Positions 5,864 to 61,630 of a DNA stretch of 64,000 nt are shown piece after piece (position 1 is the first letter of the stretch; each line of letters begins with the position of its first letter). A model generated the notes under the pieces. That model saw nothing but the letters and a program-made list of their open reading frames with translations. It did no database searches and was not told the origin of the DNA. The stretch is from a virus, in IMG/VR virus record IMGVR_UViG_3300027759_000067, positions 25,708 through 89,707 of that record; one strand, 5' to 3'. Made by a program: the position numbers and the translations under genes.

Positions 5864-5864
5864 A

Positions 5865-6110: not shown

Positions 6111-6112
6111 TC

Positions 6113-6568: not shown

Positions 6569-6571
6569 CAC

Positions 6572-6609: not shown

Positions 6610-6618
6610 AAATGTATC

Positions 6619-16403: not shown

Positions 16404-17877
16404 AAAAGAGAAAACTCCTAAACCAAACTATACTGCTGAGATGCAGAAACTATACTTGGAGATGTTCTTATCAGATGCTGAAACTTTTGTACGTTGCCAA
16501 AACATTTTTGATCCACTGAACTTTGATCAAAGATTCCAGGATACAGCAGAATTTATTACCAAGTATGTAGATGACTATAAAGTCATGCCCGAGGTTGCAA
16601 TTGTTAACGCAAGTTGTAGATCAGAACTCCAATCTATACAATTACCTAAAGAAAACTACGAATGGCTCATGGACGAGTTTGAGAACTTTAGTAGACATAA
16701 AGGACTGGAACGTGCCATTATAGAAAGTGCTGATCTACTCGAAGCCGGCGACTATGGACCAGTGGAAAAACTGATCAAAGACGCTATACAGATATCACTG
16801 AACAAGGATATGGGTACAGATTACTTTGAGGATCCAAGAGCACGTTTGACTAAACTTAAAGACGGTAATGGACAAATTAGTACAGGGTGGCCTAGCATTG
16901 ATCGCAAGTTGTATGGTGGGTTCAATCGTGGTGAACTGAATATCTTCTGTGCAGGATCAGGCGGTGGTAAAAGTCTATTCTTGGCCAATATGGGCGTGAA
17001 CTGGGCACTACAAGGTCTTAACGTATTGTATCTAACATTTGAGTTGAGCGAGGGCTTGGTGGCCATGCGTTTGGATAGTATGATGACCGGTATTGGTACT
17101 AGAGAGATCTTTAAGAATCTAGACGACGTTGAACTTAAAGTCAAAGTCCTAGGCAAGAAGTCTGGAAATCTACAAGTAAAATATATGCCCAGCGGTAAGA
17201 ACTGTAATGACATTAGAGCCTATCTAAAAGAATATCAGGTTAAGAAAGGATGTAAACCTGACGTTATCCTTATTGACTATTTGGACTTAATGATGCCATT
17301 GAGCGTTAAGGTTAGTCCTAGCGACTTGTTTGTTAAGGACAAATATGTATCTGAAGAGATCCGTAATCTAGCTATGGAAACACAATGTATTACGGTGACT
17401 GCTAGTCAGTTGAATCGTAGTGCAGTTGAAGAGATTGAGTTTGATCACAGTCATATCTCTGGTGGACTATCTAAGATCATGACAGCAGATAATGTTATTG
17501 GTATCTTTACATCTAGAGCAATGAAAGAACGTGGACGGTATCAAATCCAGTTTATGAAGACACGTTCAAGTTCCGGTGTTGGACAAAAGGTTGATTTGGA
17601 ATTTAATGTTGATACTCTACGTATCAGCGACTTAGGTGAAGATGAAGAAACTAGCTTTAGTCAACAAAAAGCAGAAAACGGTACAAGCTCTATGATGAAG
17701 GGCTTTAAACGTACTAGTACAGTGACTACCAGCACAGATGAAACTACTGGTGAAGTTAAATGGGAAAGACCTACTCCTGCCGAAGGGTGGAGCATTGATA
17801 AACCTAATAGAAACCCACTTAAGGTTGCAGGCGATATTAGATCAATGTTGGCTAATATGAACAGCGAAAAAGATTAG
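16396..17877 (+). CDS. 41: Replicative DNA helicase (T4 gp41-like, DnaB family)
   Basis: 493 residues (T4 gp41 is 475). RecA-fold motor: Walker A GSGGGKS (187-193), H1a-like LTFELSEG, Walker B DVILIDYLDLM, the Q-containing TASQLNRSAVE segment and an arginine-finger-type KTRSSSG. The N-terminal about 140 residues are the DnaB-like oligomerisation/primase-contact domain. It unwinds the lagging-strand template 5'-3' as a hexamer. It overlaps the primase gene and meets the AlgH-like gene convergently. Confidence 0.93.
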   Translation: MNKKEKTPKPNYTAEMQKLYLEMFLSDAETFVRCQNIFDPLNFDQRFQDTAEFITKYVDDYKVMPEVAIVNASCRSELQSIQLPKENYEWLMDEFENFSRHKGLERAIIESADLLEAGDYGPVEKLIKDAIQISLNKDMGTDYFEDPRARLTKLKDGNGQISTGWPSIDRKLYGGFNRGELNIFCAGSGGGKSLFLANMGVNWALQGLNVLYLTFELSEGLVAMRLDSMMTGIGTREIFKNLDDVELKVKVLGKKSGNLQVKYMPSGKNCNDIRAYLKEYQVKKGCKPDVILIDYLDLMMPLSVKVSPSDLFVKDKYVSEEIRNLAMETQCITVTASQLNRSAVEEIEFDHSHISGGLSKIMTADNVIGIFTSRAMKERGRYQIQFMKTRSSSGVGQKVDLEFNVDTLRISDLGEDEETSFSQQKAENGTSSMMKGFKRTSTVTTSTDETTGEVKWERPTPAEGWSIDKPNRNPLKVAGDIRSMLANMNSEKD

Positions 17878-18434
17878 AACCAATTGGCTACTTGCTGTTT
17901 ACTGGAATCAGCAATGACTTTATGCCACTGATCTATGTCTGTATAACCAAATACTAATTCAGGCTCTGCACGGGTGAATGACCAACTTTGATTGATGTTC
18001 CAGGGCGCCTCACCTAATATCTCACCTTCTATATGCCCGGGCAACCAACGTGTAAACCCTGCTACTGCACGAAACTGACTGGGCCCTTCATGTCTACTAA
18101 TAGCTGTTAATACGGATACATCACTACTGATGCCTATTTGCTCTGTGAGCTTGTTAGTGGTGGGACTAAACCAATCCAACGTATGTATGATGTGTATACG
18201 ATTGGTGCTTTCACTACCTCCTATATACAAGGGTTGATCGCCATCCATGTTTAATCCTATATTACGCATTACACTATCAACAGTGACGTTATTGGTGTAA
18301 GGCCTATTAATTTGTAAACCTATGGCACCTGAGGTGTCATGATCTATGACTAATATGGCACTCCTGCGTAGAGAAGTATCTGTTCGTTTTGGATGAGCGG
18401 CTAATAAGAAGCCAGTGTAGTTTTGTTCGTACAT
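17874..18434 (-). CDS. YqgE/AlgH family (UPF0301) protein
   Basis: 186 residues, the full family length (E. coli YqgE about 187). Family pattern: GFLLAAHP at the start, the core LVIDHDTSGAIGLQINRP (33-50), YIGGSES, and the C-terminal FRAVAGFTRWLPGHIEGEI then W. AlgH was named as a regulator of alginate genes in Pseudomonas, but the molecular function of the family is unsettled. It is rare to see in a phage. It is driven from a TAAATA motif 5 nt before its ATG, divergent from the next gene. Identification is strong; role is unknown. Confidence 0.8.
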   Translation of the reverse strand: MYEQNYTGFLLAAHPKRTDTSLRRSAILVIDHDTSGAIGLQINRPYTNNVTVDSVMRNIGLNMDGDQPLYIGGSESTNRIHIIHTLDWFSPTTNKLTEQIGISSDVSVLTAISRHEGPSQFRAVAGFTRWLPGHIEGEILGEAPWNINQSWSFTRAEPELVFGYTDIDQWHKVIADSSKQQVANWF

Positions 18435-23483: not shown

Positions 23484-23747
23484 TTAGTTGTTGTTTATTG
23501 TGTACAATGCATTATCTAAATATTCTGAGATAATTTGCTTTTTGTAAGTGTTAACAATAGTTTCTTGTAGTGTTTCGCAAGCGCACAATAAGTTAGTGTC
23601 GCTGTCGTCTTCTTCTAGCACATAATTAATAACTTGCAGCATTGTTTTACCCGTACGCACTGCTTCGGCAAATACAATTGCTTCGCAATTGTTAACGTTG
23701 TTATTTACAGCGTGGAATCCGTTTGCAGTTTGTGTTACTTGTAACAT
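23484..23747 (-). CDS. Small Asn-rich hypothetical protein
   Basis: 87 residues, Asn-rich at both ends, with a Cys pair (LLCACETL). No family recognised. AT-rich codon use unlike most of the module; first of four such genes (23.5-24.6 kb). RBS AAAGGAAA; promoter P3. Confidence 0.65.
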   Translation of the reverse strand: MLQVTQTANGFHAVNNNVNNCEAIVFAEAVRTGKTMLQVINYVLEEDDSDTNLLCACETLQETIVNTYKKQIISEYLDNALYTINNN

Positions 23748-23775
23748 AGTGTTTCCTTTTAGTGTTTAAGTGTGT

Positions 23776-23804
23776 ATTATAACGCTAAAGGGCTCCGCTG
23801 TCAA
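23776..23804 (-). promoter_or_regulatory. Early sigma70 promoter P3
   Basis: TTGACA-17-TATAAT on the minus strand, 28 nt before the ATG at 23747; no clear spacer stem. Confidence 0.8.
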
Positions 23805-23836
23805 CCTGTGTTGCAAAGCCCTTTCACTTTACTCTA

Positions 23837-24115
23837 CTATTTGTTATAACTTGCGTTAATGCGTAAGTATGTACGCCCCCCGCTCCTAAAACCCATGCAG
23901 CCTGTGTAATTGCTTGTTGTTGCTTTAACTCTGTTAGTAAAGCCCACAAGTGTAAACAAGTCTTGTATCTCTTTTACTAATGCGTGTTTATCCGCATAGT
24001 TAATGTCCCATGTTAGCAAGCGTGTATTATTAACACCTTTGTCTGTGTATTTTGCACTGTCCCCTACAATATTGTTTACAATATTGCGTATTGCTTGCGT
24101 ATCCGCTAGTTGCAT
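23837..24115 (-). CDS. Small hypothetical protein
   Basis: 92 residues, Asn/Thr-rich, ending YTGCMGFRSGGRTYLRINASYNK in two short pieces that suggest a small alpha/beta fold with a basic face. AT-rich. RBS AAAGGAG; promoter P4. No family recognised. Confidence 0.65.
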   Translation of the reverse strand: MQLADTQAIRNIVNNIVGDSAKYTDKGVNNTRLLTWDINYADKHALVKEIQDLFTLVGFTNRVKATTSNYTGCMGFRSGGRTYLRINASYNK

Positions 24116-24143
24116 AAAAAGCTCCTTTAGTGTTTAAGTGTGT

Positions 24144-24172
24144 ATTATAGCAGTTTAGTCTGCTGTTGTCAA
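24144..24172 (-). promoter_or_regulatory. Early sigma70 promoter P4 with spacer hairpin
   Basis: TTGACA-17-TATAAT overlapping the 3' end of the upstream gene; spacer stem AGCAG-ACTAAA-CTGCT. Confidence 0.8.
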
Positions 24173-24331
24173 GTCTTTTTGTGTAAAGTTAAACAGCTCG
24201 TTGTAACAAGCAACCAGCTGCTCGTCTGTCATTTTGTAGCAAGCACTATTAGTGTCGTATTCCATTTTAATATTATACAACATTTCCCAACGTGTTAGTC
24301 CGTTGCTTAATTTACGTTTTGTAAAATACAT
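24155..24331 (-). CDS. Small hypothetical protein
   Basis: 58 residues, using the ATG with RBS AAGGAG rather than an upstream start overlapping the previous gene. MYFTKRKLSNGLTRW at the start, helical end. No family recognised. Co-transcribed with the preceding gene from P5. Confidence 0.6.
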   Translation of the reverse strand: MYFTKRKLSNGLTRWEMLYNIKMEYDTNSACYKMTDEQLVACYNELFNFTQKDLTTAD

Positions 24332-24341
24332 ATAGTTCTCC

Positions 24342-24632
24342 TTATTTGCAGCAATATTTGTTAGCACTAATTAGTGCGTTATCTTCTATGTACAATAGCA
24401 CACTAATGTAAAATTCGCGTACTAATGTATCTTGCATAATAATTGCGTTATGCAATGCTAGTACATTTTTGTCTGTGTTAAACTGCACTAGTGCGTTAAC
24501 GTTATATGCCACGTCCTCTGCAAACATAGTGTCTATGTCCTCTTCGTTAGCAAATACGTTAATATATTCCTCTGTTGTTTTAAGTAATAGCACGTTAATT
24601 TGTGCAATGTGTTTTGCTGTTAGTTTTTGCAT
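24342..24632 (-). CDS. Small hypothetical protein
   Basis: 96 residues, helical, acidic, AT-rich coding with a Cys pair close to the end (YCCK). RBS AAGGAAC; promoter P5. No family recognised. Confidence 0.65.
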   Translation of the reverse strand: MQKLTAKHIAQINVLLLKTTEEYINVFANEEDIDTMFAEDVAYNVNALVQFNTDKNVLALHNAIIMQDTLVREFYISVLLYIEDNALISANKYCCK

Positions 24633-24657
24633 ATAGTTCCTTTTTGTTTATGTGTGT

Positions 24658-24686
24658 ATTATAACGCAGAATAGCACACTTGTCAA
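24658..24686 (-). promoter_or_regulatory. Early sigma70 promoter P5, inverted repeat centred on -35
   Basis: TTGACA-17-TATAAT. A perfect 9-bp repeat, AGCACACTT-GAC-AAGTGTGCT, is centred on the -35 rather than in the spacer, as expected of an operator or read-through hairpin. Confidence 0.8.
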
Positions 24687-24718
24687 GTGTGCTGTTAATA
24701 ACCCTGCTAGCGGTAAGG

Positions 24719-24889
24719 TTATTTCTTGGTGGCTGGGGCCTGCTGTATCTGAACGCAGGTGCCTTTGAATTGCTGTTTCTGTAGGTCCTGAAGAGCCGCC
24801 TGGCATATGGCCTGCTCCTGGAACTGCCCTATGTAGGTCACGCTGGGTGCTGTGGTTCCTATGCCAATGAGTGCTATTGCCCAGAACAT
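24719..24889 (-). CDS. Small protein with N-terminal membrane segment
   Basis: 56 residues. Hydrophobic start (FWAIALIGIGTTAPSVTYIG, about 2-21) then a Gln-rich charged tail with two Cys (ICQA, GTCVQ). It starts 1 nt after the stop of the neighbouring membrane protein with GGAGG just upstream. Likely an inner-membrane-anchored periplasmic or cytoplasmic peptide. The gene pair recalls lysis accessory arrangements, but nothing diagnostic is seen. Confidence 0.5.
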   Translation of the reverse strand: MFWAIALIGIGTTAPSVTYIGQFQEQAICQAALQDLQKQQFKGTCVQIQQAPATKK

Positions 24890-24890
24890 A

Positions 24891-25109
24891 TCACGCCTCC
24901 TTCTTGGTTAGGGTGGACTTGAACAGCAGGGCGAACAGGAACTGGAGTCCCCAGGCCTGTAGCCAACCTATCTCTCGTGTGCCCTCTACAGCAGGTACAA
25001 GGCATTGGTTCCACAGTTCCATCACCGGCCAAGCCAGTAGGAAGGATAGGAACAGTAGGGTAGCGATACTGGCTACGATTGCACCTAATGCTACGATTGC
25101 GTCTTTCAT
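24891..25109 (-). CDS. Small membrane protein
   Basis: 72 residues with two hydrophobic segments (about 5-27, 48-63), Trp-rich, basic C-terminus (STLTKKEA). RBS AGAGG. Middle gene of an operon of three short membrane proteins from P6. Function unknown. Confidence 0.6.
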   Translation of the reverse strand: MKDAIVALGAIVASIATLLFLSFLLAWPVMELWNQCLVPAVEGTREIGWLQAWGLQFLFALLFKSTLTKKEA

Positions 25110-25118
25110 AACAACCTC

Positions 25119-25220
25119 TTACAAAAATGTGTACACAATAGCAATCCCTATAAAGTACAGGAAAAGTGATCCTACTGCTACAATAGCGGCAAACTCGAGT
25201 GTTTCTTTTAACAGTTGCAT
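25119..25220 (-). CDS. Tiny single-span membrane protein
   Basis: 33 residues with one membrane segment (about 10-31). Good RBS (GGAG) and promoter P6 directly upstream, with TTGACC as -35. Short length means modest certainty. Confidence 0.5.
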   Translation of the reverse strand: MQLLKETLEFAAIVAVGSLFLYFIGIAIVYTFL

Positions 25221-25239
25221 TTCTATCTCCTAAAATTGT

Positions 25240-25268
25240 ATTATAGCATCAAATGCGGAATTGGTCAA
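25240..25268 (-). promoter_or_regulatory. Early sigma70 promoter P6
   Basis: TTGACC-17-TATAAT; overlaps the end of the upstream gene; drives the three membrane-protein genes. Confidence 0.75.
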
Positions 25269-25467
25269 GCACTTCTTTAGCCTCGTCTACAGTGGTGATC
25301 TCATCAACGAATGCTGCCAGCATCATTTGGATCAGTGTACGGCACTCGAGTCGTTCTGGCCGGGGCAAGGTAGCGATGAATGCCTCCACTGCCGCGTATT
25401 CCTCAAGACCCCACATAATGTCGCACAGGGCCTTCTGTTTAGCGTTGAGTCCAGTGATAGTGATCAT
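25249..25467 (-). CDS. Small hypothetical protein
   Basis: 72 residues from the ATG with GGAG 7 nt upstream (the TTG start further out is weaker). Helical: LNAKQKALCDIMWGLEE, then LIQMMLAAFVDEI and VDEAKEVLDQF. No family recognised. It overlaps the tiny upstream ORF (TAATG). Confidence 0.65.
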   Translation of the reverse strand: MITITGLNAKQKALCDIMWGLEEYAAVEAFIATLPRPERLECRTLIQMMLAAFVDEITTVDEAKEVLDQFRI

Positions 25468-25556
25468 TACATTCTCCAAAAGTAGATTACAAAGGGTCCG
25501 CCGATTAGGGCTGCGACTGCGGTAGCTTGTGCTAGGTCGATTAGTGCTTGTTTCAT
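25467..25556 (-). CDS. Tiny membrane peptide, predicted leaderless
   Basis: 29 residues, hydrophobic 10-27. The ATG begins 6 nt after the -10 of P7, where transcription should start, so the mRNA would be leaderless. The stop overlaps the next ATG. It may be a real peptide or a translated leader. Confidence 0.4.
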   Translation of the reverse strand: MKQALIDLAQATAVAALIGGPFVIYFWRM

Positions 25557-25562
25557 GTATGT

Positions 25563-25591
25563 ATTATAGCCGAGAACTTGGGTCTCGTCAA
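25563..25591 (-). promoter_or_regulatory. Early sigma70 promoter P7 with spacer hairpin
   Basis: TTGACG-17-TATAAT; spacer stem CGAGA/TCTCG. Confidence 0.8.
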
Positions 25592-25893
25592 CCTATTTCT
25601 AAGACTTTATTCATATCGATGTTGAAGCCGGCAGCATGGACGTAGACTGCTCGTAGTGAAGATTGGGCAAATCGTTGCTCTACCCGTTGTATAGCCTGGT
25701 TCAATGAAGGGGCGCGAACCCGGTATGTATCCTGATTGCCGTCGGCCCACTCTACAGTGACTAGGTGCCAGGTGTTGTTCTCTGCGACTGCATACAGACC
25801 GTTGACCAATAGGACCAACACTCCGGTGATGAGTGTCTCACTATGGGCCAGGCTGGACCCTAGCATCAGGGCTAGGATTACGGCCTTCTTCAT
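25588..25893 (-). CDS. Exported small protein (signal peptide)
   Basis: 101 residues. N-terminal MKKAVILALMLGSSLAHSE is a classical Sec signal with cleavage near AHS. The mature part is a small mixed domain (WHLVTVEWADGNQDTYRV, then IQRVEQRFAQSS). Likely periplasmic during infection. The ATG overlaps the upstream stop (ATGA), so it is coupled to the P8 gene. Function unknown. Confidence 0.65.
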   Translation of the reverse strand: MKKAVILALMLGSSLAHSETLITGVLVLLVNGLYAVAENNTWHLVTVEWADGNQDTYRVRAPSLNQAIQRVEQRFAQSSLRAVYVHAAGFNIDMNKVLEIG

Positions 25894-26111
25894 ACAGCGC
25901 CCACCTTTCGGAACAGGTCCATAAAGGCACCGTTGATCTCGTCCATCTCTTCTTGCTCGACATAGAAGTCTGAGCGTGGATCATAGTACTGACCTTCCTT
26001 GGGATCGTAGTAGAGAACACGTCCGGAGAAGTTGAATGGGCCTTCTAAGCCCTTGCGTGGACCGTAATTGTCACGCATGTTGTCCACAGTGTTCAAAACG
26101 CGATATCCCAT
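25890..26111 (-). CDS. Small hypothetical protein
   Basis: 73 residues, Tyr/Asp-rich (VLYYDPKEGQYYDPRSDFY), acidic end. RBS AAGGAG; promoter P8. In RNA read through from upstream, CCCATCTG in the P8 spacer could pair with CAGATGGG covering this start codon. Confidence 0.65.
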   Translation of the reverse strand: MGYRVLNTVDNMRDNYGPRKGLEGPFNFSGRVLYYDPKEGQYYDPRSDFYVEQEEMDEINGAFMDLFRKVGAV

Positions 26112-26138
26112 CTGGTGCTCCTTAGTGTGTAAGTATGT

Positions 26139-26167
26139 ATTATAGCCTCAGATGGGCTGCTTGTCAA
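26139..26167 (-). promoter_or_regulatory. Early sigma70 promoter P8
   Basis: TTGACA-17-TATAAT. The spacer carries CCCATCTG, complementary to the start-codon region of its own gene. Confidence 0.85.
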
Positions 26168-26168
26168 C

Positions 26169-26396
26169 CTATTTTTTGGTAATTTCTTCAAGTTTCTCTT
26201 TGTACTCTAGTTCGGACACTTGCATCAAGTAGACTTCACGCAGAGCATAAACGGTTCCAATCAGGAGCATAGTGACGAAGAATGCCTCACCGCCGAAGAA
26301 GTAGACAAAGGTCAGTGCTGCTAGACCACCGAGCACAGCAGAGCCAAAGAGTTTAGCCACGTGTACAGCGGCCTTTTGTTTCAATGTAAGCATCAT
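26169..26396 (-). CDS. Small membrane protein
   Basis: 75 residues with two membrane segments (about 13-32 and 36-53) and a charged C-terminal helix (ELEYKEKLEEITKK). RBS AAGGAAA 8 nt before the first ATG. Promoter P9. Function unknown. Confidence 0.65.
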   Translation of the reverse strand: MMLTLKQKAAVHVAKLFGSAVLGGLAALTFVYFFGGEAFFVTMLLIGTVYALREVYLMQVSELEYKEKLEEITKK

Positions 26397-34406: not shown

Positions 34407-35225
34407 ATGGCATTACCATCATTTCCAGGGCCGATAAGCCTAAGTCAACTACAAACTGAGTTTGGAGGTACTAATCCCATAAGACTAGGTGGAGAGTATC
34501 ATGCAGGGCAAGGGTTAGTAGCACCTGGGCTCAGTGGATACCCTATTGTTGATGGTGTTAGTACAAAAACATTAATACCCAGTGGCACCACAAGCAGGAT
34601 CAGTTTAGGTAATTTCTTTGGAGGGGACGTCACAGAGTTTTATTTTGTAGCAGATTATATAATATTAACCTATTATTTTGCCACTGGATTAGATTTAGAC
34701 ACACGTACACGTATGACCAGTCCGTATTCTGCAGGCACATATGTAGGGTGGGGGCAAAGTGGAAGTGGACAAACTCGAGCTGAAGATCTCGCATATCCAG
34801 AATACAGTCAAGATCTACCCAATGGAGCAATAGCCTTACTATGGGCAGGGGATAACACAAATACAGGGTTAGAATCAGTTCAAATCAACGTAGCAAATAT
34901 TCGTTCGTACTATGGTAACACCACCATAAGTCTTGATCTAAGGGCACAATGGTATATGACAGTAGGAACCACGCCGGTAAAAATACAAGCTGACCTGTAC
35001 AAAGGTGGAACCATGGTATATTCCAGTGGGAACTTCACCTGGACCAACCCCACTGCTACCAGCAGTTTATTAGACATTGCTTCGGGAGAAGTTGCTGCCA
35101 GTATCATCAGAGGGCCCACATTTGGTGGCGATCCGGATAATGGGTTCAGTGAGATTGGTACTAGTGTAGCTGTTATGACCTACAACACATTATCCGGAGT
35201 AGGCCGCTTTGACATGACGGGTTAA
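34407..35225 (+). CDS. Virion structural protein (tail/fibre type)
   Basis: 272 residues from the ATG; a TTG at 34377 overlaps the late motif and is rejected. The N-terminal GPISLSQLQTEFGGTNPI pattern is common in tail-associated proteins of T4-like and other phages; the remainder is Gly/Thr/Ser/Asn-rich beta sequence (GTTSRISLGNFFGG). Probably an adhesin or fibre-associated protein. The end overlaps the convergent methyltransferase by 4 nt. Confidence 0.7.
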   Translation: MALPSFPGPISLSQLQTEFGGTNPIRLGGEYHAGQGLVAPGLSGYPIVDGVSTKTLIPSGTTSRISLGNFFGGDVTEFYFVADYIILTYYFATGLDLDTRTRMTSPYSAGTYVGWGQSGSGQTRAEDLAYPEYSQDLPNGAIALLWAGDNTNTGLESVQINVANIRSYYGNTTISLDLRAQWYMTVGTTPVKIQADLYKGGTMVYSSGNFTWTNPTATSSLLDIASGEVAASIIRGPTFGGDPDNGFSEIGTSVAVMTYNTLSGVGRFDMTG

Positions 35226-35881
35226 GTAATCAACCAGTGATTAATACTAGGTTTAATTTTAGGTCTACGACTGGACATTATAGCTTCTCTAGTCCACAGA
35301 TACATATAGCGTTCAGCGTGTCCGGGAATCCAATCACTGATGTTATATAAGTAGTTCTGTTCAAGATTAACAGGGTTATTAAACAAGTTCAGTTGTCTAT
35401 AGTCGCCGGAAGTAATAATGTTATTATCAGCGTAGGTATGTGAAGTAAGCAAGAGATATTTTATATTACTTTTAAGGAAGTTATCAAAGAAGTGATTGAT
35501 ATCCTCAAAGCTAAGATGCATCAAGCAATCTCTACATATCATAAGATCAGCAATGGGTAGTGGATCTTTAGTTATATCCAGTTGACTCCAGGTATGTTCT
35601 GGGAATTTAGTTTTTAGGTCATTGATCAGAGGTTCGACTATGTCAGCGCCGTGATATTTGTAGTTGTTCAGTTGTGCCAATACTAATGGCATCCAATTAA
35701 AGTCTCCGCAGGCAGCGTCCAAGATAGTGTATATATTCAGTTCTTTGATGATATTAGGTAGTTCTTTAACTAGATTTTCTGTATAGAGTAGGCTACTGCC
35801 CGGACCGCTGTAGGTATTTGGATCTGAGTCTTTATTAGTCCAGAACTGTGTTTGATATATGTTGGTAAAGTGTTCTTGCAT
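35222..35881 (-). CDS. SAM-dependent class I methyltransferase
   Basis: 219 residues. Motif I ILDAACGDFNWMPL (about 53-66) binds SAM; the acidic ADIVEP after beta-2 (about 79) and LMICRDCLMHL (about 113-123) complete the Rossmann pattern. The substrate is unknown; the setting among fibre and glycosyltransferase genes suggests surface sugar or virion modification. A TAAATA motif lies 5 nt before the ATG with no RBS. Confidence 0.75.
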   Translation of the reverse strand: MQEHFTNIYQTQFWTNKDSDPNTYSGPGSSLLYTENLVKELPNIIKELNIYTILDAACGDFNWMPLVLAQLNNYKYHGADIVEPLINDLKTKFPEHTWSQLDITKDPLPIADLMICRDCLMHLSFEDINHFFDNFLKSNIKYLLLTSHTYADNNIITSGDYRQLNLFNNPVNLEQNYLYNISDWIPGHAERYMYLWTREAIMSSRRPKIKPSINHWLIT

Positions 35882-52303: not shown

Positions 52304-53308
52304 ATGGCACATCCGATACAATTTCCAACAGAACCAACAGTAGGTCAAGAATATTTGGCAGAAAACACCGTAACCTACATTTATACAGGAGATCGTTGGT
52401 CTGCTGCCCGTGCAATTACTACTAAAAAGTACTTTTTTACACAAAATGGTTCTTTTTCAGATTGGGAATACAATCCATCTGTTGATGATTTACTAGATGG
52501 CGGCTGGTCAGGCGGCTCAGAACCTAATCCCGGCCCTCCTCCGCCAAACATACCTAAATTCCACTGGACTAAAGATCCAATTGACGCACGTGATTACATT
52601 TGGCAAATACAACCATTAACTGCAACTCCTACCAGCGTAGATCTACGCCCTTACTCATCTGCAATAGAAAATCAAGGTAATTTAGGCAGTTGTACAGGCA
52701 ATGCCATTGCAGCAGCCATTGAACTTGTAGATAGAAAAAAGAACAAACCGCTTGAAGTTAGTAGATTGTTTATCTACTATCAAGAACGACTGTTAGAAGG
52801 TACAATTAGTGTAGATGCAGGTGCTTACATACGTGATGGTATCAAAGCCTGCTATACTTGGGGTGCTCCTGTTGAAAGTTTGTGGCCTTATACAATATCA
52901 AAGTTTGCAACAAAACCTAGCACAGCAGCCTATACTGATGCACTTAGAAGAAAAGTAACAGGTTATCAACGCTGTACAAATTTTGCAGCAGTAAAGAATG
53001 CATTAGCGTCTGGCTATCCAGTAGTAGCAGGATTTTTAGTATATAGTAGTTTCTATAATATTACCAGCAATGGCATCATGCCTTATCCTAATGTAAATAC
53101 AGAACAATTGTTAGGCGGTCATGCAATATGCATAGTTGGGTATAATGATAATTATGGCGGAACTCCTGGCAACGGTAGATTCATCTGTAAAAATAGTTGG
53201 GGCAGTGCGTGGGGCAATAACGGATACTTTTATATGCCTTACCAAGTGATACAAAATACATCCATGAGCAGCGACTTTTGGGTAATAAACGGTGTAACTA
53301 ATCCATAA
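52304..53308 (+). CDS. Tail-linked papain-like cysteine protease
   Basis: 334 residues. N-terminal about 70 residues (FPTEPTVGQEYLAEN, then YIYTGDRW) are a virion fibre-attachment-type module. A Pro/Gly linker (about 66-83) joins a C1A papain domain with QGNLGSCTGNA (Cys130), GGHAICIVGYN (His273) and CKNSWG (Asn297): the complete catalytic triad. No signal peptide or inhibitory prodomain is evident. It may digest host surface protein, mature fibres or act at entry. Flanked by two giant fibre genes. Confidence 0.85.
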   Translation: MAHPIQFPTEPTVGQEYLAENTVTYIYTGDRWSAARAITTKKYFFTQNGSFSDWEYNPSVDDLLDGGWSGGSEPNPGPPPPNIPKFHWTKDPIDARDYIWQIQPLTATPTSVDLRPYSSAIENQGNLGSCTGNAIAAAIELVDRKKNKPLEVSRLFIYYQERLLEGTISVDAGAYIRDGIKACYTWGAPVESLWPYTISKFATKPSTAAYTDALRRKVTGYQRCTNFAAVKNALASGYPVVAGFLVYSSFYNITSNGIMPYPNVNTEQLLGGHAICIVGYNDNYGGTPGNGRFICKNSWGSAWGNNGYFYMPYQVIQNTSMSSDFWVINGVTNP

Positions 53309-53321
53309 TAGGAAAATAAAA

Positions 53322-56300
53322 ATGACAACAAGAATTAAATTACGTAGAGATACAGCAGCAAATTGGGTTTCAAACAATCCTATTTTAGCCTTAGGTGAAA
53401 CAGGTTTCGAAACCGATACCCGAATGATGAAGTTGGGCAATGGTTCAACTCAGTGGAATAACTTAAAATATGCTGTCACTGGTGATATGCGTATGTCTGG
53501 TACAACCATTGCCAGCGATACTGATATTAAATTTAGTTCTCACTCTGGACTACGAGAAAATTGGGCATTGACTGTTAATGCTCTTAGTAGTCCAACTGAT
53601 CCTATTGAGGCCTGGACAGATGCTGTGGCCTACGATAGTCAGGGTAATGCTTTTGTTGCCGGTTGGTATGTTGATATTGGACCTACTGCTTCCGCTAAGT
53701 ATAGCGGAGCATTCTTAATGAAAGTTGATTCTACTGGACAAGTATTATGGAACAAATATTATAATGAATATACCACATATGGTTGGGGTGTAGCAGTTGA
53801 TCATGCTGGTAATGCTATATTGATTCTAAGTGAAACTGACAATCCAGATTCTGATATTGTTATGATCAAAGTTAGAGGTGACAATGGTGTTCCAATTTGG
53901 CAAAGATACCTTGCCAGTGTGGGTGACTATGATGACTTTGCTACCAGCATTGATGTTGATGCCAACAATGATATCTTTATCACAGGTTGGAGTGGTGATG
54001 ATGCAGTTAATGATAGTAATGAAACTTTCCTAATCGCCAAGATCAGTGGCGTAGATGGTACTTTTAATAATGGTGGTTGGCAGAAAATGCTTGCTCCAAC
54101 TGAAGGATGTAACACAGGACTCGGATGGGGTATTGCTGTAGATCCAGCAGGCGATGTATGTATTGTGGGCAATGATTGGACAGGCCCAAGGTTTATTGCA
54201 GTGGTTAAACGTCTTGGTACAACTGGTGGTGTAGCATGGCAAACACGCATACTTGATCAACTCAGTTACAATGGCAATGTATATACTGATTTGACACTAT
54301 ACGGTACAGATGTAACATCAGACAGTCAAGGTGACTTTTATGTTACATGGTGGGGAGATTGGGAAGGAGACGGCCCAGGATTCCCTGGCACACAATGCGG
54401 TGTGACCAAACTCAGCGGCACAGATGGTACTGCACTATGGAGTCGTCAAATTGGTTGGCCTGACTACACAAGTGTATCAGGATCCATAGTATGTGACAGC
54501 GATGATAACATCTATGTACATAGCAGTATCAATTCTGATCAAGCCAGCGGCGATAATAACACTAGATTTAATTCTGTTATAGTTAAATTAAACGCACAAG
54601 GTACAGTGGTTTGGAAACGTACATTAAGCAGAGAACAATATACTACATTCAGCAGTGTAGTTCCTATGCCTTACAGTCCAAGTGGATTACCAGGCGGACA
54701 AACAGTGGCAGTCAATGATGAATACTTGTTGATCGGTGGCACACAATTTATTACTGAAGATTATGATAATAATCAAAATTGGAAAAATCAACCATTCTTA
54801 GTACAGGTAGATAAAGATGGTACAGAGTTCTCTGTGGATGGTTGGCATTTTAAAGCCTGCCCAGAATGGCTTGCTGTTAATCTTGTAACTCCTGTAATTG
54901 ATAATCAAAATTTCTTTGATGATGTAACAGCAGTTCCTGGTACATTGACCAATGTTAATGCTGTTGATGTTTATTATGAAACCAACATGGATACCACTGA
55001 TCTAAGTTATAGAATCATGGACCGTGCAGAGACTATGACCTTTGATGGTAATAAATTAACATTACCTCTAAGTGGTAGTGTTGATATTCCACGTAAGAAA
55101 ATTGGACATATCACCAGTGTTGGTAGATTTGATGGTACAGAAGGTCTTAAAGGCGGTAACCAAGAAGGCGATGTATGGTTCAATGGTGTGGTTAGAGATA
55201 CACAAGGCAATAGTTATGTTGCTGGTACTCGGTATATGTATTATCCTTTTAATGACAGTGGATCCAATATCGACGACGATGTTCCACTCTTATTCAAGAT
55301 AGACAGCGATGGTAAGATTGCGTGGCAAGCCAGCGATAGTTTAGATTACTTCACTGAAGCAGTTGATGTTATGATCAATCCAGTGACCAACAATCCTGTG
55401 TTGTTAAGTTTAGATGCTGATCAAGACGGTAGTGAAGGCTTCACAGTTAAAACATTAGATGCCAATAGCGGACAAGTTGTAGGTGATGTTATCCATGTAC
55501 AGGATGCAAGCGGATCTCAACGTGATATAAATGCTCGCAACCTTGCTCTATTGAGCGATGGTACTCCTGTAGTAGCAGGTTATATCAACAACAACAAAGA
55601 AGACTACTTGAATGTAACTAGTGGTGGTGCTGGTCTAACTGGCAGCAATGATACAGATACATTGGTTATACCTAAGAGTGTATTTAATACCGGTAACTAT
55701 CCAAGTGCTAATGGATTATGGTATATCAGTAATCCTTCACCATCCTTAAGTACAGCAATTGTCGGAGTTAATATCTTTAACAATAGTGGATCTGGATTCA
55801 CTGCTACTAATGTAAGCAGCACTGGTACAGATGCTACATTTAATATTAATATTGCACCAGCAACAGGTGTATATTCTGTAACGGTGGTCAGTGGTGGAAC
55901 TAATTATCTCAATGGTGATACGCTGTCTATTCCTACACTACAGTTCTTAGGCGTAGCAGGTCAAGGTGATATAGCCTTAACAGTTACTACCAACGGTAGT
56001 GGTGCAATAACAACTGCTACAACCGTAAGCACAAGTTCTTGGGCTAATATTAAGTTAGTAATTAATAGCCCTTACAATTTCACCACATCTACTAGTACAT
56101 TGAAGGTCTATGAAGAAACCAATGATGATGGATTTATTTGGACACCTAATTGGAGCACTGCTATTGGTGGAACAACTGGTACTGACTACTTCCACGCATT
56201 GGCAGTGGATTCAGACGACAACATTATCGTTGGTGGATATTATGAATACACTGGATTACCACCTACCGATGCTGAATATATTTGGAATAAAACCAGTATG

Positions 56301-57455
56301 GTGGCCAAGTATTCCAGCACTGGAACACAGCAGTGGGCAGTGAGTTTAGATGGTACAGAAGGTGAAGGATTTGTTACAGGTATTGTTACAGATCCTGACA
56401 ATAACATCTATGCTATGAAAAGTTGGACTAACAGTGATAGCAACTATCTAATAAAAGTTTCATCTACTGGTACTATGTTATGGCAAGTTAATATTGGAAA
56501 ATATCAATACTTTAACGGTGGGGATCACGGTATTGCCATAGACAGCGATCGTAACATCCTAATTGGCGGCCAATATTATGGCGATCGTGTAGATAATGAT
56601 GAACACAATTATAACGATGGTATATTACTCAACAAGTTTGACACTGATGGTAATCTATTATGGATGAGACTACTCTATAGTAGAACTCGTGATATTCGCA
56701 ATGGTTATAACGATGACTATCGTAATGCTATTGATATCCACGGTGATAGATTCAGTGTAATTGGTTATAGCGATGCAGTTGGTAATCAAGATTACAATGG
56801 ATTCTTTGCTGATCTACCATTAGATGGCAGCGGTACTGGACACTACAACGACTTTATCTATGAAGCAGTTGAACACCTTGTTGATCGTGTTACTCCTTAC
56901 ACTACAAGTACCGTCTTTACATTTACTCCAGCAACAAGATCACACGCATTTACAGTGACCAATGAAACAAATGTATTGACCATATATACAGATAGATCGG
57001 ACAAAGTTGAAAATGTCTATGAGGACATGGGTGGTGAGATAACGTCTGTTAATAAGATTGTATTTGAAGATGGTACTGAGCAAATGACCAGTGCTCAAGA
57101 CATCCCCCAAGTACCAATGAGTCGTGTAAATAGTGATTCCGATTATATTCTAAGATTAGAAGATCGTGGTCATCATGTGTATTCAGGAACAGAATATAGT
57201 CCATCGTATGTCCGAGTTCCAAGACACAGTGATGTACCATTCCCGATTGGTACTGCTATTACTATCGTCAGCGGTGGGTGGGGCGAAGTAAGAATCAAAG
57301 CACAACATACTGGTGACACACGAATTTATGGTGATGGTACTGGCGACTATAATGATGGTTGGTATATACCAGAAAGATCAATGGCAACATTGCTCAAAAT
57401 TGAAGAAGATGTATGGATGTTGGCAGGTGCTGGCTTAGGTACTGGACATAATTAA
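53322..57455 (+). CDS. Giant fibre with beta-propeller (SBBP-like) repeats
   Basis: 1377 residues. The N-terminal about 60 (RIKLRRDTAANW, then ALGETGFETDTRMMKLGNG) is the phage fibre head-binding/Mtd-type module. The main body has many repeats with core D-x-[DQ]-[GD]-N-x-[YFI]-[VI]-x-G (for example VAYDSQGNAFVAGW, IDVDANNDIFITGW, VDSDDNIIVGGYY, IDSDRNILIGGQ), as in SBBP seven-bladed-type propellers. The C-terminal part (EDRGHHVYS, IVSGGWGEVRIKAQ) looks like a fibre tip. Adhesion role inferred. RBS GGAAA. Confidence 0.75.
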   Translation: MTTRIKLRRDTAANWVSNNPILALGETGFETDTRMMKLGNGSTQWNNLKYAVTGDMRMSGTTIASDTDIKFSSHSGLRENWALTVNALSSPTDPIEAWTDAVAYDSQGNAFVAGWYVDIGPTASAKYSGAFLMKVDSTGQVLWNKYYNEYTTYGWGVAVDHAGNAILILSETDNPDSDIVMIKVRGDNGVPIWQRYLASVGDYDDFATSIDVDANNDIFITGWSGDDAVNDSNETFLIAKISGVDGTFNNGGWQKMLAPTEGCNTGLGWGIAVDPAGDVCIVGNDWTGPRFIAVVKRLGTTGGVAWQTRILDQLSYNGNVYTDLTLYGTDVTSDSQGDFYVTWWGDWEGDGPGFPGTQCGVTKLSGTDGTALWSRQIGWPDYTSVSGSIVCDSDDNIYVHSSINSDQASGDNNTRFNSVIVKLNAQGTVVWKRTLSREQYTTFSSVVPMPYSPSGLPGGQTVAVNDEYLLIGGTQFITEDYDNNQNWKNQPFLVQVDKDGTEFSVDGWHFKACPEWLAVNLVTPVIDNQNFFDDVTAVPGTLTNVNAVDVYYETNMDTTDLSYRIMDRAETMTFDGNKLTLPLSGSVDIPRKKIGHITSVGRFDGTEGLKGGNQEGDVWFNGVVRDTQGNSYVAGTRYMYYPFNDSGSNIDDDVPLLFKIDSDGKIAWQASDSLDYFTEAVDVMINPVTNNPVLLSLDADQDGSEGFTVKTLDANSGQVVGDVIHVQDASGSQRDINARNLALLSDGTPVVAGYINNNKEDYLNVTSGGAGLTGSNDTDTLVIPKSVFNTGNYPSANGLWYISNPSPSLSTAIVGVNIFNNSGSGFTATNVSSTGTDATFNINIAPATGVYSVTVVSGGTNYLNGDTLSIPTLQFLGVAGQGDIALTVTTNGSGAITTATTVSTSSWANIKLVINSPYNFTTSTSTLKVYEETNDDGFIWTPNWSTAIGGTTGTDYFHALAVDSDDNIIVGGYYEYTGLPPTDAEYIWNKTSMVAKYSSTGTQQWAVSLDGTEGEGFVTGIVTDPDNNIYAMKSWTNSDSNYLIKVSSTGTMLWQVNIGKYQYFNGGDHGIAIDSDRNILIGGQYYGDRVDNDEHNYNDGILLNKFDTDGNLLWMRLLYSRTRDIRNGYNDDYRNAIDIHGDRFSVIGYSDAVGNQDYNGFFADLPLDGSGTGHYNDFIYEAVEHLVDRVTPYTTSTVFTFTPATRSHAFTVTNETNVLTIYTDRSDKVENVYEDMGGEITSVNKIVFEDGTEQMTSAQDIPQVPMSRVNSDSDYILRLEDRGHHVYSGTEYSPSYVRVPRHSDVPFPIGTAITIVSGGWGEVRIKAQHTGDTRIYGDGTGDYNDGWYIPERSMATLLKIEEDVWMLAGAGLGTGHN

Positions 57456-57537
57456 TCATGAGTATCATATCAGCAGTCATAGGGGCGGTAGCGTACAATT
57501 AGTATCACAAATAGTTAAACTGAATTATCATAGCAGT

Positions 57538-57543
57538 TAAATA
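57538..57543 (+). promoter_or_regulatory. Late promoter motif for the metabolic cassette
   Basis: GTTAAATACT, 5 nt before the ATG at 57549; no RBS. Confidence 0.55.
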
Positions 57544-57548
57544 CTGCT

Positions 57549-58301
57549 ATGACTAAATCACAATGGGAAGAACGTAGTAAGAACTGGAATAGTGGCTCGC
57601 CAATGGTTCCAAATTACGAAGTAATTGATTACTTAAAATCACAGATAGACAATGACTCCGATGTATTAGTGTTGGGCGTGACTCAACAATTCCATCAGGC
57701 ATTTGATAATGTAACAGCAGTGGATCGAGAACCTGCAATGATTGAAAGAGTTTGGTTAGGCGACACCGATACCAAACATGCCATACTGGACAATTGGCTA
57801 ACAGTGGATTTACCCGACAATAACTTTGATGCTATACTAGGTGATGGTAGCCTTAACATGTTGGTAAATTCCAAAGAAATACAGACTGTGGTTGATCGTT
57901 GTCGAGAATGGCTCGCACCCAATGGCAAGTTCATATGCCGTATGTTCATACGCCCATACCAACCTATTACTAGAGAATATCTATTAGAACAAGCAGCAAA
58001 TCTCACAATAAGTTGGACAGCATTTCGTAGATTCATTCCTATGTTATTGGCACACGAACAAGGTGCTTTTGTACCCTGGGCAAAAACATACAATTTCTTT
58101 AATGAATTGTTTCCAGATAAAAGTAAGTTACCATTTACCGCTGAACAACTATCACGCATGGATGCTTACAAGGATGTTACAACCAGCACATGGTTCCCTA
58201 CACGTAAAGAGATATTGGATCTGTTGCCCGATGCTGAGTTTGTAGATGTTGGCACCTATGATATTGCTGAACTGTTTCCGTTAATAGTGATTAAGAAATG
58301 A
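57549..58301 (+). CDS. SAM-dependent methyltransferase
   Basis: 250 residues. Rossmann pattern: DVLVLGVTQQF (motif I, degenerate Gly-rich loop, about 39-49), VTAVDREPAMIERV (acidic Asp after beta-2), FDAILGDGSLNML (motif IV) and LAPNGKFICRMF. A small-molecule or sugar methylation role is suggested by its 4-nt overlap with the adenylate-forming enzyme gene. The substrate cannot be read. Confidence 0.75.
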   Translation: MTKSQWEERSKNWNSGSPMVPNYEVIDYLKSQIDNDSDVLVLGVTQQFHQAFDNVTAVDREPAMIERVWLGDTDTKHAILDNWLTVDLPDNNFDAILGDGSLNMLVNSKEIQTVVDRCREWLAPNGKFICRMFIRPYQPITREYLLEQAANLTISWTAFRRFIPMLLAHEQGAFVPWAKTYNFFNELFPDKSKLPFTAEQLSRMDAYKDVTTSTWFPTRKEILDLLPDAEFVDVGTYDIAELFPLIVIKK

Positions 58302-59587
58302 AAGCAGCAATAGCAGCATTGGTTGGTGAGTTAGATAAATCACAATACTTCACACTTGAACAACTACATAACATACAGGAATCACAACTGGCCAACATAG
58401 TCAAGTATCACGCTCAACGTAGCAGTCATTTTGCCGCAAGATTAGCAGCACAGGGATTGAATCCTAAAGACATACTTACTTTAACCAACCTAAAGAAACT
58501 AACGCCCTTTGCCAAGAAAAATATACAGCAAGCAGGCGATGACTTTAACGTTAAGAATGTACCACCTGCACATCTACCAATTGGTAAGTCAGAAACCAGC
58601 GGTAGCACTGGCGAACCCGTAACAATAAACAAATCAAAGTTATGTGACCTGTTTTGGAATGCCCATACTCTACGAGATCATCAATGGTACAAAAGAGATT
58701 ATACAGGCAAACTAACCAGCATACGTGCCACTAATAGAAAGTACTTAGAAGCAGACAACTGGGGAGGACCTGTGCATATGCTATATGGTACCGGCCTGGG
58801 ACAGGGTATTCCTGTGTCTATGGATATTCAACAACAAATGAAACATCTTGCTGAGTTCCAACCTAACATTATAATAGTACATGCCGGTGTGTTAGCGGGC
58901 ATGATCACAGAGTGGGAACGTACTGGATATACACTTACAGAACTTGTACATCTTAAGAACATAGGTGATACATTACACGACGATACAAGACAGCGATTTA
59001 AAACACTAACAGGATTAACCATAGAGGACAACTACAGCAGCAGCGAAGTAGGCTGTATTGCTATACAATGTCCAGAAGGTGGTATGTTCCACATAATGGC
59101 AGAGAATCTCATAGTAGAAGTTATCAACGAGGATGGTACAGGTTGTCAGCCCGGCCAAGTAGGGCGTGTAGTTGTCACTGACTTGTTCAATGCCGCTGCC
59201 CCCGTCATACGCTACGACATTGGAGACTATGCTGAAGTAGGCACACCCTGTACATGTGGCAGACATTTACCCACATTGAAACGTGTATTAGGACGTGAGC
59301 GTGGTTTGTTCCAACGTGCAGATGGTAGTAAGTTTTGGCCCACAGCAGGACAATATGCTGCGGCTAAAGTTGTTCAAGTACGACAATGGCAAATCGTACA
59401 GCATAGTTTAGATGACATAGAGTACAAGTTAGTCACAGATCTGCCACTTACCCAAGAACAACACGATCAACTATTAATTATCTTTCGAGAAAGATTAGGA
59501 TTTGAGTGTGTTAGGATTACAGAGTATAGAGATCAAATACCTTTAAGGAATGGAAAATATGAGGAAACCGTATGTTTAATCGAATAA
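58298..59587 (+). CDS. PaaK/CapK-like adenylate-forming enzyme
   Basis: 429 residues, standard for phenylacetate-CoA-ligase-like enzymes. P-loop-like SETSGSTGEPV (98-108), DNYSSSEVG (about 246-254), RYDIGDYAEVG (about 305-315) and a Cys pair CTCGRHLPTL match the AMP-binding PaaK family, which activates a carboxylate as acyl-AMP and usually forms a CoA thioester; CapK relatives occur in polysaccharide clusters. Overlaps both neighbours (4 and 16 nt), so the three genes are one translation unit. The acid is unknown. Confidence 0.85.
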   Translation: MKAAIAALVGELDKSQYFTLEQLHNIQESQLANIVKYHAQRSSHFAARLAAQGLNPKDILTLTNLKKLTPFAKKNIQQAGDDFNVKNVPPAHLPIGKSETSGSTGEPVTINKSKLCDLFWNAHTLRDHQWYKRDYTGKLTSIRATNRKYLEADNWGGPVHMLYGTGLGQGIPVSMDIQQQMKHLAEFQPNIIIVHAGVLAGMITEWERTGYTLTELVHLKNIGDTLHDDTRQRFKTLTGLTIEDNYSSSEVGCIAIQCPEGGMFHIMAENLIVEVINEDGTGCQPGQVGRVVVTDLFNAAAPVIRYDIGDYAEVGTPCTCGRHLPTLKRVLGRERGLFQRADGSKFWPTAGQYAAAKVVQVRQWQIVQHSLDDIEYKLVTDLPLTQEQHDQLLIIFRERLGFECVRITEYRDQIPLRNGKYEETVCLIE

Positions 59588-60495
59588 TAGCCATACTATT
59601 ATTAGCCGTTAGTTTATCAGCACAAGCACAACAGAAGCCTATTAGAATGGTCATAGCCTATGGAGCAGGTGGGCTCACTGATATTATCAGTCGTAAGTTT
59701 GAAGAGCCCTTAGAAAAAGAATTAGGACGTAAAATAATTATAGATCCCCGCGTGGGTGCCGGTGGTTATATAGGATTTAAGAATGTAGCAAATACTCGAT
59801 CGGATGAAGTGGTTATTGCCATAACAGACTCTATGGCATTATCTAATATATCATTATTATACGATGATTTAGATATCAACGATTTTAAGTATATTGTACA
59901 AATTGGATACACACAAGGATTGGTATTAGCAGTTCGTAAGGGCAGTCCATTAAAAAACATAGACACTTGGCGTAATCATCGAGGACTGCCCATAAATGTA
60001 GGTGTTAATGGCATGGGTGCTGCCCATCATTACTATAGTTGGTTGGTTAGTAATCAACTGGGTTTTCCAAGGACTGACATTTACTACAAGGGTTCTGGAG
60101 AAATGGTCACTCAGATCATAGGTGGGCATGTTGATGCTATATGGGTTAATCTTGCCAGTATAATTCAATTTGAAAATAGAGTTGATATAGTGGCAATAAC
60201 AGCACCTAAAAGAAATGAGTTAATACCAAATGTACCTACGTTTAAGGAACTTGGTATAGATTTGCCCCCTAAGCCTCTTTTTATGGTAATTGCAAATAAC
60301 ACCACAGACACCGCTACATTAAGAGAAGTTGAACGTGCTGTGACAAAATTGCTGAATAATCCAGAATTTGTAAAATCATTAAGTCTTGAGTTACAAATAG
60401 AGCCAGGAACCGGTGCAGATGCCCGTAATGACACTGAAAAATTATTCAAAGCACAGGCTAAGTTTATAGAATACGTCAAGACATTAAAGAAGTGA
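59572..60495 (+). CDS. Bug/TctC family periplasmic solute-binding protein
   Basis: 307 residues. Signal peptide (MFNRIIAILLLAVSLSAQAQ) then the Bug signature: KPIRMVIAYGAGGLTDIISR (about 22-41), VGAGGYIGFKNVA, NVGVNGMGAAHHYYS, DIYYKGSGEMVTQIIGGHVDA and VPTFKELGIDLP. The family binds carboxylates or similar solutes for TTT transporters and is highly expanded in Burkholderiales. No transporter membrane subunits are nearby. A phage copy probably feeds a host transporter or senses or sequesters a ligand. It overlaps the PaaK-like gene by 16 nt. Confidence 0.92.
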   Translation: MFNRIIAILLLAVSLSAQAQQKPIRMVIAYGAGGLTDIISRKFEEPLEKELGRKIIIDPRVGAGGYIGFKNVANTRSDEVVIAITDSMALSNISLLYDDLDINDFKYIVQIGYTQGLVLAVRKGSPLKNIDTWRNHRGLPINVGVNGMGAAHHYYSWLVSNQLGFPRTDIYYKGSGEMVTQIIGGHVDAIWVNLASIIQFENRVDIVAITAPKRNELIPNVPTFKELGIDLPPKPLFMVIANNTTDTATLREVERAVTKLLNNPEFVKSLSLELQIEPGTGADARNDTEKLFKAQAKFIEYVKTLKK

Positions 60496-60526: not shown

Positions 60527-61630
60527 ATGGCGGCCAACGGCATATCAACACTATCTACAAAACAATTACGTCAAGTTGCTAAACTAGATCTGGCTCAATT
60601 AAAGCGTAAAGGCTATACACTATACGCAGATGGTACTACGAATTTTGGCAGCGCACAGTTTAGCGGTAGTAATTACCTGTCAGTAACTAATGCGGCATTT
60701 ACCTTTACTGGCAACTTTACAGTTGAAGGTTGGTATTATCCTACAAATGTAACAGGTTCTCACAGTTTATTTTGTTTAGGGCCAGATCCGGCTAATAGAT
60801 ATGTTTTTGCTTTGTCAGGAACATCGGTAAGCAGTAACCTATACGGCTTTGGCTTAACAACCTATACCAGTACTGTGCCTATCAATACTTGGACTCACAT
60901 TGCTGTAGTACGCAGTGGAAGCACAGTTAAGGTATATATTAACGGTATTGCCAGTGTAACAACAGATACTCAAGCAGGTACAATAGGCAACGGTACATTA
61001 AACATTGGTGCAGATGCCGCCAATGGTGCTCTATTTTTAGGCAACATATCAAACTTCAGAGTAGTAAAAGGCACAGCATTATACACAGCAACATTTACAC
61101 CATCGCTAAGTCCATTTAAGGCCATTGATGGAACACAGCTATTATTAAACACCGACAACGGTGCTAACTTTTTAAAAGATAGTTCAACAAATAACTTTAC
61201 AGTTACTAATTATGGTTCAGTTGTTACATCGAACACTGGGCCAGGCCCGGACACAGTTGCTAACTTTTATCGTGTTCGTAATGTTTACGATATAGATTTA
61301 CTGGCAGACAAATATACCAGCAATACTACCACTGTAATGACCACAAGCACATTAGTCGAAGGACGTCCTTGGGCTACGGTATATACAAGTTTAACTTTTA
61401 CCTACGGCGAGGCTACAATTAGTTTTAGTCTATCCGGCAGTACTTTTAGTAATGTTACTTGCCCTTACGGCGCAGGCGGATATTCAGCTAGTAGTGGTCA
61501 ACTAACTATGCTTGGTACAAAACTCATTGGAGGAACTACTCCTGCTAATGATATAATATGGAACTATGTGTGTGCGGCCAACGATGGTGTTATAACAGGA
61601 TTTACCTACAGTTCAGGTACTCCTCCTTAA
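60527..61630 (+). CDS. Virion protein with LamG/concanavalin-like domain
   Basis: 367 residues. Residues about 40-210 have the Laminin-G_3 pattern (FSGSNYLSV, FTVEGWYYPTN, INTWTHIAVVRSGSTVKVYING (in two parts), ISNFRVVKGTALYT, TQLLLNT). Such lectin-like domains bind glycans. The helical basic start (LSTKQLRQVAKLDLAQLKRKG) may be the virion anchor. Likely an adhesin or tail decoration. Confidence 0.8.
   Translation: MAANGISTLSTKQLRQVAKLDLAQLKRKGYTLYADGTTNFGSAQFSGSNYLSVTNAAFTFTGNFTVEGWYYPTNVTGSHSLFCLGPDPANRYVFALSGTSVSSNLYGFGLTTYTSTVPINTWTHIAVVRSGSTVKVYINGIASVTTDTQAGTIGNGTLNIGADAANGALFLGNISNFRVVKGTALYTATFTPSLSPFKAIDGTQLLLNTDNGANFLKDSSTNNFTVTNYGSVVTSNTGPGPDTVANFYRVRNVYDIDLLADKYTSNTTTVMTTSTLVEGRPWATVYTSLTFTYGEATISFSLSGSTFSNVTCPYGAGGYSASSGQLTMLGTKLIGGTTPANDIIWNYVCAANDGVITGFTYSSGTPP

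Follow-up and report, generated by a model that had tools for sequence, protein, structure and literature searches.

The window analysed in this work is a stretch of 64,000 nucleotides, corresponding to bases 25,708-89,707 of a virus record of 89,707 bases. Three genes lie in tandem on its plus strand. The first (57549-58301) encodes a predicted class I SAM-dependent methyltransferase of 250 aa with a degenerate motif I (LGVT), the second (58298-59587) a PaaK-like adenylate-forming (ANL) ligase of 429 aa carrying the adenylation motifs and a Cys-His...Cys-x-Cys zinc knuckle, the third (59572-60495) a Bug/TctC solute-binding protein of 307 aa, plausibly exported, with the signal peptide MFNRIIAILLLAVSLSAQA. 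The first two ORFs overlap by 4 nt (ATGA), the second and third by 16 nt. Upstream resides a fibre gene (53322-57455, plus strand) combining an Mtd_N domain and beta-propeller repeats, downstream a fibre-like gene (60527-61630, plus strand) with a concanavalin A-like domain. The fibre cluster also includes a gene for a papain-like (C1) cysteine peptidase (52304-53308, plus strand), a homologue of which directly precedes the methyltransferase in five other loci (L003, L006, L008, L023 and L024). An earlier reading, made from the sequence only, had described three overlapping genes under one late motif between fibre genes, and ORFs, families, motif and flanks were all borne out.

The virus is evidently, by gene content, a fragment of a large T4-related, jumbo-like myovirus. 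The record carries myovirus genes for tail sheath, tail tube, terminase, single-strand binding protein and helicases, and its UvsX shares 60-68% identity with homologues in jumbo phages (among them Sinorhizobium phage Phosso, CBB, GAP32 and Atu_ph07). The terminase large subunit is encoded by two ORFs separated by about 630 bases (L115, 5064-7763; about 23563-26262 of the record, G000, thus extending into positions 1-555 of the window). The second ORF has an extra N-terminal part, and the split is intein-like in look when judged by eye. An AlgH-like (DUF179) protein is encoded at 17874-18434 on the minus strand of the window.

The P-loop A3, the A5 acid, the A7 Asp, the A8 Arg and the A10 Lys (motif definitions from PMC8388817) are all present in the ligase, and place it in the ANL superfamily. 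SGxTGxP, E250, D310, R333 and the A10 lysine K420 are invariant in an alignment of 18 phage and bacterial sequences, as are the zinc ligands C258, H265, C318 and C320. The latter align with Cys248, His254, Cys308 and Cys310 of NatL2, in which the Cys-His-Cys-Cys knuckle is reported to bind a structural zinc (PMC7204872). The knuckle residues are found in ClxA and BT_0428 as well, hence are not exclusive, and are absent from PaaK1/2. The AlphaFold2 model (pLDDT 88.5) is predicted to share the fold of PaaK1 (Foldseek E 3e-27, TM about 0.65). NCBIfam models of the DVU_1553, FlxY and PaaK types are matched at 1e-16 to 1e-28, all under the curated cut-offs, and the score with the phenylacetate-CoA ligase model PaaK (TIGR02155) is 61.2 bits, about a tenth of the cut-off of 646.3. 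The designation PaaK-like given by the sequence-only reading holds for fold and motifs, and does not extend, by the curated model, to phenylacetate-CoA ligase; a role in phenylacetate catabolism was discarded because the curated PaaK cut-off is missed.

The nearest PDB matches are NatL2 and AjiA1 in single-sequence searches, BT_0428, PaaK1/2 and ClxA in profile searches, and the closest solved relatives activate aryl or small carboxylic acids. NatL2, AjiA1 and ClxA, which join aryl acids in benzoxazole pathways (PMC7204872, PMC8388817), share with the phage ligase the PaaK-family fold, the size and the adenylation motifs, and in NatL2 and ClxA the Cys-His-Cys-x-Cys knuckle occupies the same places. 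The phage enzyme, however, is only about 20% identical to them, and is partnered by a methyltransferase and by no amidohydrolase. Only nine residues follow K420, and the profile alignment stops short of the part in which NatL2-type ligases have a C-terminal extension that keeps them in a closed, CoA-excluding form. PaaK1 and PaaK2 are among the best fold matches and share the A10 lysine, but the phage ligase differs from them in having the zinc knuckle, and no paa catabolic genes reside nearby.

The methyltransferase matches Methyltransf_11 with 30.2 bits (cut-off 21.2), and its AlphaFold2 model (pLDDT 93) is predicted to resemble many SAM methyltransferases. The matches are small-molecule N- and O-methyltransferases; the best profile matches, which are weak, are CysG and BelI of beta-lactone pathways. 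The His-His of the CysG/BelI metal site (PMC11408123) aligns with Asn103-Met104 of the phage protein, and assignment to the CysG-type carboxyl-methyltransferases was rejected because the His-His-Asp metal site is not conserved. CysG masks the C1 carboxylate of isopropylmalate by methylation, after which the adenylate-forming CysF closes the lactone (PMC11427300). The CysG-CysF pair of cystargolide, in which a SAM carboxyl-methyltransferase and an adenylate-forming enzyme act in turn on one dicarboxylic acid, is a precedent of the works-like kind; the phage pair is not, as far as shown, the same by descent, and its enzyme misses the His-His. Another class I methyltransferase is encoded in the window at 35222-35881, on the minus strand.

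The third protein matches the TctC domain at 5.4e-26 (92.2 bits, gathering score 27). A Sec-type signal peptide could be recognised by eye in the sequences of all five Bug members of the A3 set, and the phage protein keeps the conserved loops of BugD-type proteins, including GG-x-x-D. Its closest solved relatives, BugD and the terephthalate-binding proteins, share TctC domain, signal peptide and GG-x-x-D loop; unlike known Bug/TctC proteins, the one described here is phage-encoded, its gene overlaps a ligase gene, and no TctA accompanies it in phage records. The TctA permease (PF01970) was found in none of the 12 phage records searched, which are fragments.

Additional genes of these families occur in large phages. 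Two more Bug genes alternate and overlap with genes for PP-loop ATPase-like proteins (SGG-x-DS) at 6344-16293 of L120 (G017:68000-86000), in a cluster which includes a Rieske protein and a fatty-acid desaturase. In G018 a Bug gene lies just downstream of one for a DctP binding protein, and overlaps a PP-loop ATPase-like gene. An operon at 5254-10493 of L037 encodes a TRAP-type DctP, a 256-aa protein, a Bug protein, and PP-loop ATPase-like, lipase-like and IscU/IscA-like (iron-sulphur) products. The PP-loop assignment is by eye on the motif, with no match in Pfam. A lone and distant Bug/TctC gene resides among small early-type ORFs at 8804-9751 of L121 (phage G015). When used as queries, the additional Bug proteins of L120 and L121 retrieved their own contigs only. 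In an unrelated phage of 147 kb a PaaK-like ligase gene overlaps by 1 nt a TP_methylase gene, encoding a tetrapyrrole-methylase-type SAM enzyme (L019, 799-2975). Given the Bug operons of G017 and G018, and the ligase-methylase overlap of L019, it looks like more than one accident that large phages combine a binding protein with acid activation and methylation.

TAAATA is found 11 nt ahead of the methyltransferase ATG, leaving a gap of 5 nt, and the next copy occurs only at 60502, before the downstream fibre-like gene. There are 15 plus-strand copies in the 34-64 kb region of the window; of 10 late gene starts, 7 are within 40 nt of a copy, against about 0.2 expected from its density. Given this enrichment, and the single copy heading the three genes, the trio looks like one late unit. 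The motif (TTAAATA, resembling late promoters of the T4 type) is set inside a perfect 7-bp palindrome, TAGCAGT-TAAAT-ACTGCTA (57531-57549, plus strand), the final base of which is the A of the methyltransferase ATG. Its 15-base core GCAGTTAAATACTGC is found at the methyltransferase start in L004, L006, L008, L022, L023 and L024, with a one-base variant beside the ATG in L023, and has been kept although the proteins of those phages diverged to 40-50% identity; no copy was found elsewhere in the fetched loci. No Shine-Dalgarno sequence precedes the methyltransferase ATG. With the spacing typical of T4 late promoters transcription would begin at the ATG, and the product is possibly, given the lack of a Shine-Dalgarno, a leaderless mRNA. 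The palindrome may serve as an operator or as a leaderless promoter. L001 has an inverted repeat at the start (TATCGACA...TGTCGATA), which is weaker in L002 and was set aside.

Viral contigs, the records of which are fragments, were scanned with each of the three proteins. The methyltransferase-ligase pair was identified in 15 different contigs, window included, and a Bug gene comes third in 11 of them (the window, L001, L002, L004, L006, L008, L009, L021, L022, L023 and L032). Ten viral contigs besides the window thus feature the same order and the same 16-nt overlap, at protein identities of 34-59%, which makes the trio more than a chance adjacency. Bug is replaced by a DUF2061 membrane protein in two lineages, one of them L003 (with its copy L005), the other L024. 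L015 and L017 have neither: there, a gene for a VUT-family (PF02592) transporter precedes and overlaps the pair (VUT-methyltransferase-ligase, at about 5530-8290 in both). Since two lineages have DUF2061 instead, and two have neither protein, Bug is, by this distribution, not essential to the enzyme pair.

The third gene, be it Bug or DUF2061, starts with an identical 16-nt overlap in 13 of 13 phages. Its Shine-Dalgarno in the window, GAGGAA (59561-59566, plus strand), corresponds to ligase codons E422-E423, beside the catalytic K420, from which E422 is two residues away, and its ATG is formed across the conserved ligase codons that follow. Any gene put there would gain a working start from ligase codons, and the third position is therefore best described, on sequence grounds, as an exchangeable slot. 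An outer-membrane barrel gene is fourth in 9 of the 13 phages (8 of the 11 with the trio, plus L024); its product has a signal peptide, and scores 21.1 bits in Pfam, under the cut-off of 28.7. A fatty-acid desaturase gene follows the barrel in two phages. Most phages with flank sequence have fibre-type genes next to the cassette, on one side or on both.

The trio was not found in 50,697 catalogued phage records. Tblastn searches of INPHARED with the three proteins, and megablast with 24 kb, retrieved only ligase and Bug matches of 21-24% in unannotated faecal contigs, and no precedent emerged from the literature on phage Bug proteins, phage PaaK or jumbo-phage binding proteins. An earlier report of TTT in phages is limited to a domain hit for tctA (PMC4164917). 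The combination had been presented by the sequence-only reading as unfamiliar in phages, which agrees with its absence from the catalogued records. The search for the same trio in phages and bacteria, suggested in that reading, returned the ten further viral contigs and bacteria with the pair, and the genes were neither confined to separate, unlinked positions nor disrupted in relatives, as they should have been if the unit were spurious.

A ligase-profile scan of 84,980 genomes identified the nearest cellular relatives, up to 47% identical, in Proteobacteria. Most of the close bacterial relatives have an LGVT-type methyltransferase directly upstream of the ligase, and the pair occurs in about 20 Proteobacteria. 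A separate search led by the methyltransferase gave hits in two taxa, 7 of 300 genomes for the order of G001 and 8 of 69 for the family of G004; a ligase adjoins in 6 of the 9 cases in which the flank was read, one of them on the other strand. As linkage recurs from both searches, methyltransferase and ligase are, on comparative grounds, a rare bacterial two-gene module that entered phages. No recognisable pathway or biosynthetic cluster surrounds the bacterial pairs. A Bug gene flanks a bacterial pair once only (L055), and upstream; since that genome carries 121 Bug genes, the adjacency may be due to chance. Bug is thus best seen as an addition made to the pair by phages. The move of a ready-made trio from a bacterium was set aside, as no bacterial trio in that order was found.

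All three genes are under purifying selection, with dN/dS values of 0.04-0.19 in close pairs. Pairwise identities correlate between methyltransferase and ligase (r=0.77), methyltransferase and Bug (0.88), and ligase and Bug (0.92), values reached in 0, 0 and 1 of 2000 permutations, respectively. Recurrence and co-inheritance exclude a chance adjacency of the three genes. In trees, the 15 phage methyltransferases all group together (support 97), and the phage ligases make up two groups beside Aestuariivirgaceae ligases; a single origin of the phage ligases is possible. The Bug proteins of the trio form a group of their own (support 94), separate from the bacterial Bug proteins sampled; deeper nodes are weakly supported. 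The three genes almost certainly are a genuine co-inherited genetic unit. They are a probable auxiliary metabolic cassette, made of genes of cellular origin which reside on a virus and are under selection, as indicated by trees, phage structural flanks and dN/dS. Of the transferred unit acting together that had been surmised earlier, the unit stands (order, overlaps, co-inheritance, purifying selection), as does the bacterial origin of the enzyme pair, but the genes probably did not move as a trio.

At both ends, the cassette encodes members of carboxylate-handling families, as the closest solved relatives of ligase and Bug handle carboxylates. Because the corresponding proteins are also the best co-inherited pair, one shared carboxylic acid is the most economical reading. 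We tentatively favour, at somewhat less than even confidence, a joint mechanism in which the trio would be a late module for carboxylate uptake and conversion. The exported Bug protein would capture a carboxylic acid in the periplasm, and hand it to a host permease of the TctAB type. The cytoplasmic ligase would adenylate that acid, or a close derivative, to yield a thioester, an ester or an amide. The methyltransferase would add a methyl group to that molecule, perhaps to mask a second carboxylate in the way CysG does ahead of CysF, and the product would be used or released during late infection. The other neighbours of the pair (DUF2061, the VUT transporter, the outer-membrane barrel) are envelope proteins too. 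The 12 phage records searched, all fragments, yielded no acyl carrier protein.

The late timing and the fibre-type flanks found in most phages would also suit a modification of surfaces. According to this rather unlikely hypothesis, an activated and methylated acyl or aryl group would be placed on host LPS, on the capsule or on the phage's own fibres, altering adsorption or blocking a second phage, and Bug, barrel and desaturase would make further changes to the envelope. The barrel gene directly after the module (8 of 11 trio phages, and L024) and the desaturase found in two phages fit this scheme, and PaaK-like enzymes of the CapK group are found in polysaccharide clusters. However, the loci read show neither an acyltransferase nor a glycosyltransferase linked to the cassette, such a pathway has no need of an exported solute-binding protein, and in T4-like phages metabolic genes commonly settle in structural regions.

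The matches of the ligase to NatL2 and AjiA1 (single-sequence) and to ClxA (among profile hits), together with the weak best matches of the methyltransferase to the beta-lactone enzymes CysG and BelI, raise the unlikely alternative that a small molecule is released. The product might be a signal or inhibitor, such as a methylated ester, amide, lactone or benzoxazole-like compound, with Bug or another slot protein serving export, sensing or self-protection. The ligase overlapping another SAM methylase in L019 is in line with this. Yet identity to NatL2, AjiA1, ClxA and CysG/BelI is only about 20%, no further biosynthetic enzymes are linked, and bacterial pairs lie outside recognisable biosynthetic clusters.

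It is quite improbable that Bug has an envelope function of its own, whether it scavenges for the host's catabolism, senses, or occupies one of the host's permeases, and is tied by translation only to an enzyme pair with another job. The swap with DUF2061 while the overlap stays, and the extra Bug genes away from any ligase in L120 (G017) and L121 (G015), speak for such independence. Against it, Bug-ligase distances correlate best of all pairs, and Bug genes are found in overlapping operons with PP-loop ATPase-like genes in L120 and L037, so that the association of Bug with ATP-using enzymes is recurrent. A module for deazaguanine-type modification of DNA or tRNA, suggested by the overlap of the VUT (queuosine-precursor-type) transporter with the pair in L015 and L017, by FolE, QueD and QueE-like genes a few kb from the pair in L017, and by the QueD/PTPS family in G012 and G009, is most improbable, as the PTPS family is absent from the window's record and from every Bug-trio record searched, leaving the deazaguanine link unsupported in trio phages.

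A bolder reading, in which jumbo-like phages run a modular chemistry of their own, is speculative, and in our view rather doubtful: late in infection the pair would make a specific acyl or methyl compound, the precursor or product of which would cross the membrane by way of an exchangeable envelope protein (Bug, DUF2061 or VUT, all overlapping the pair), and the system would be aimed at the host or at rival phages.

As in other phage auxiliary metabolic genes, bacterial metabolic genes are here carried and conserved by a phage, but this combination is absent from the 50,697 catalogued records and from the literature searched. Most metabolic genes in phages are lone host genes whose role is obvious, whereas the cassette brings together putative uptake, activation and methylation. 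The unit has been kept intact across deeply diverged phages, and features a plug-in third gene, the ribosome-binding site of which resides in codons of the ligase active site. All this points to a virus-run small-molecule step, not described before. The cassette offers a directly testable case of multi-step small-molecule chemistry carried out by a phage, and of a phage that makes a periplasmic solute-binding protein.
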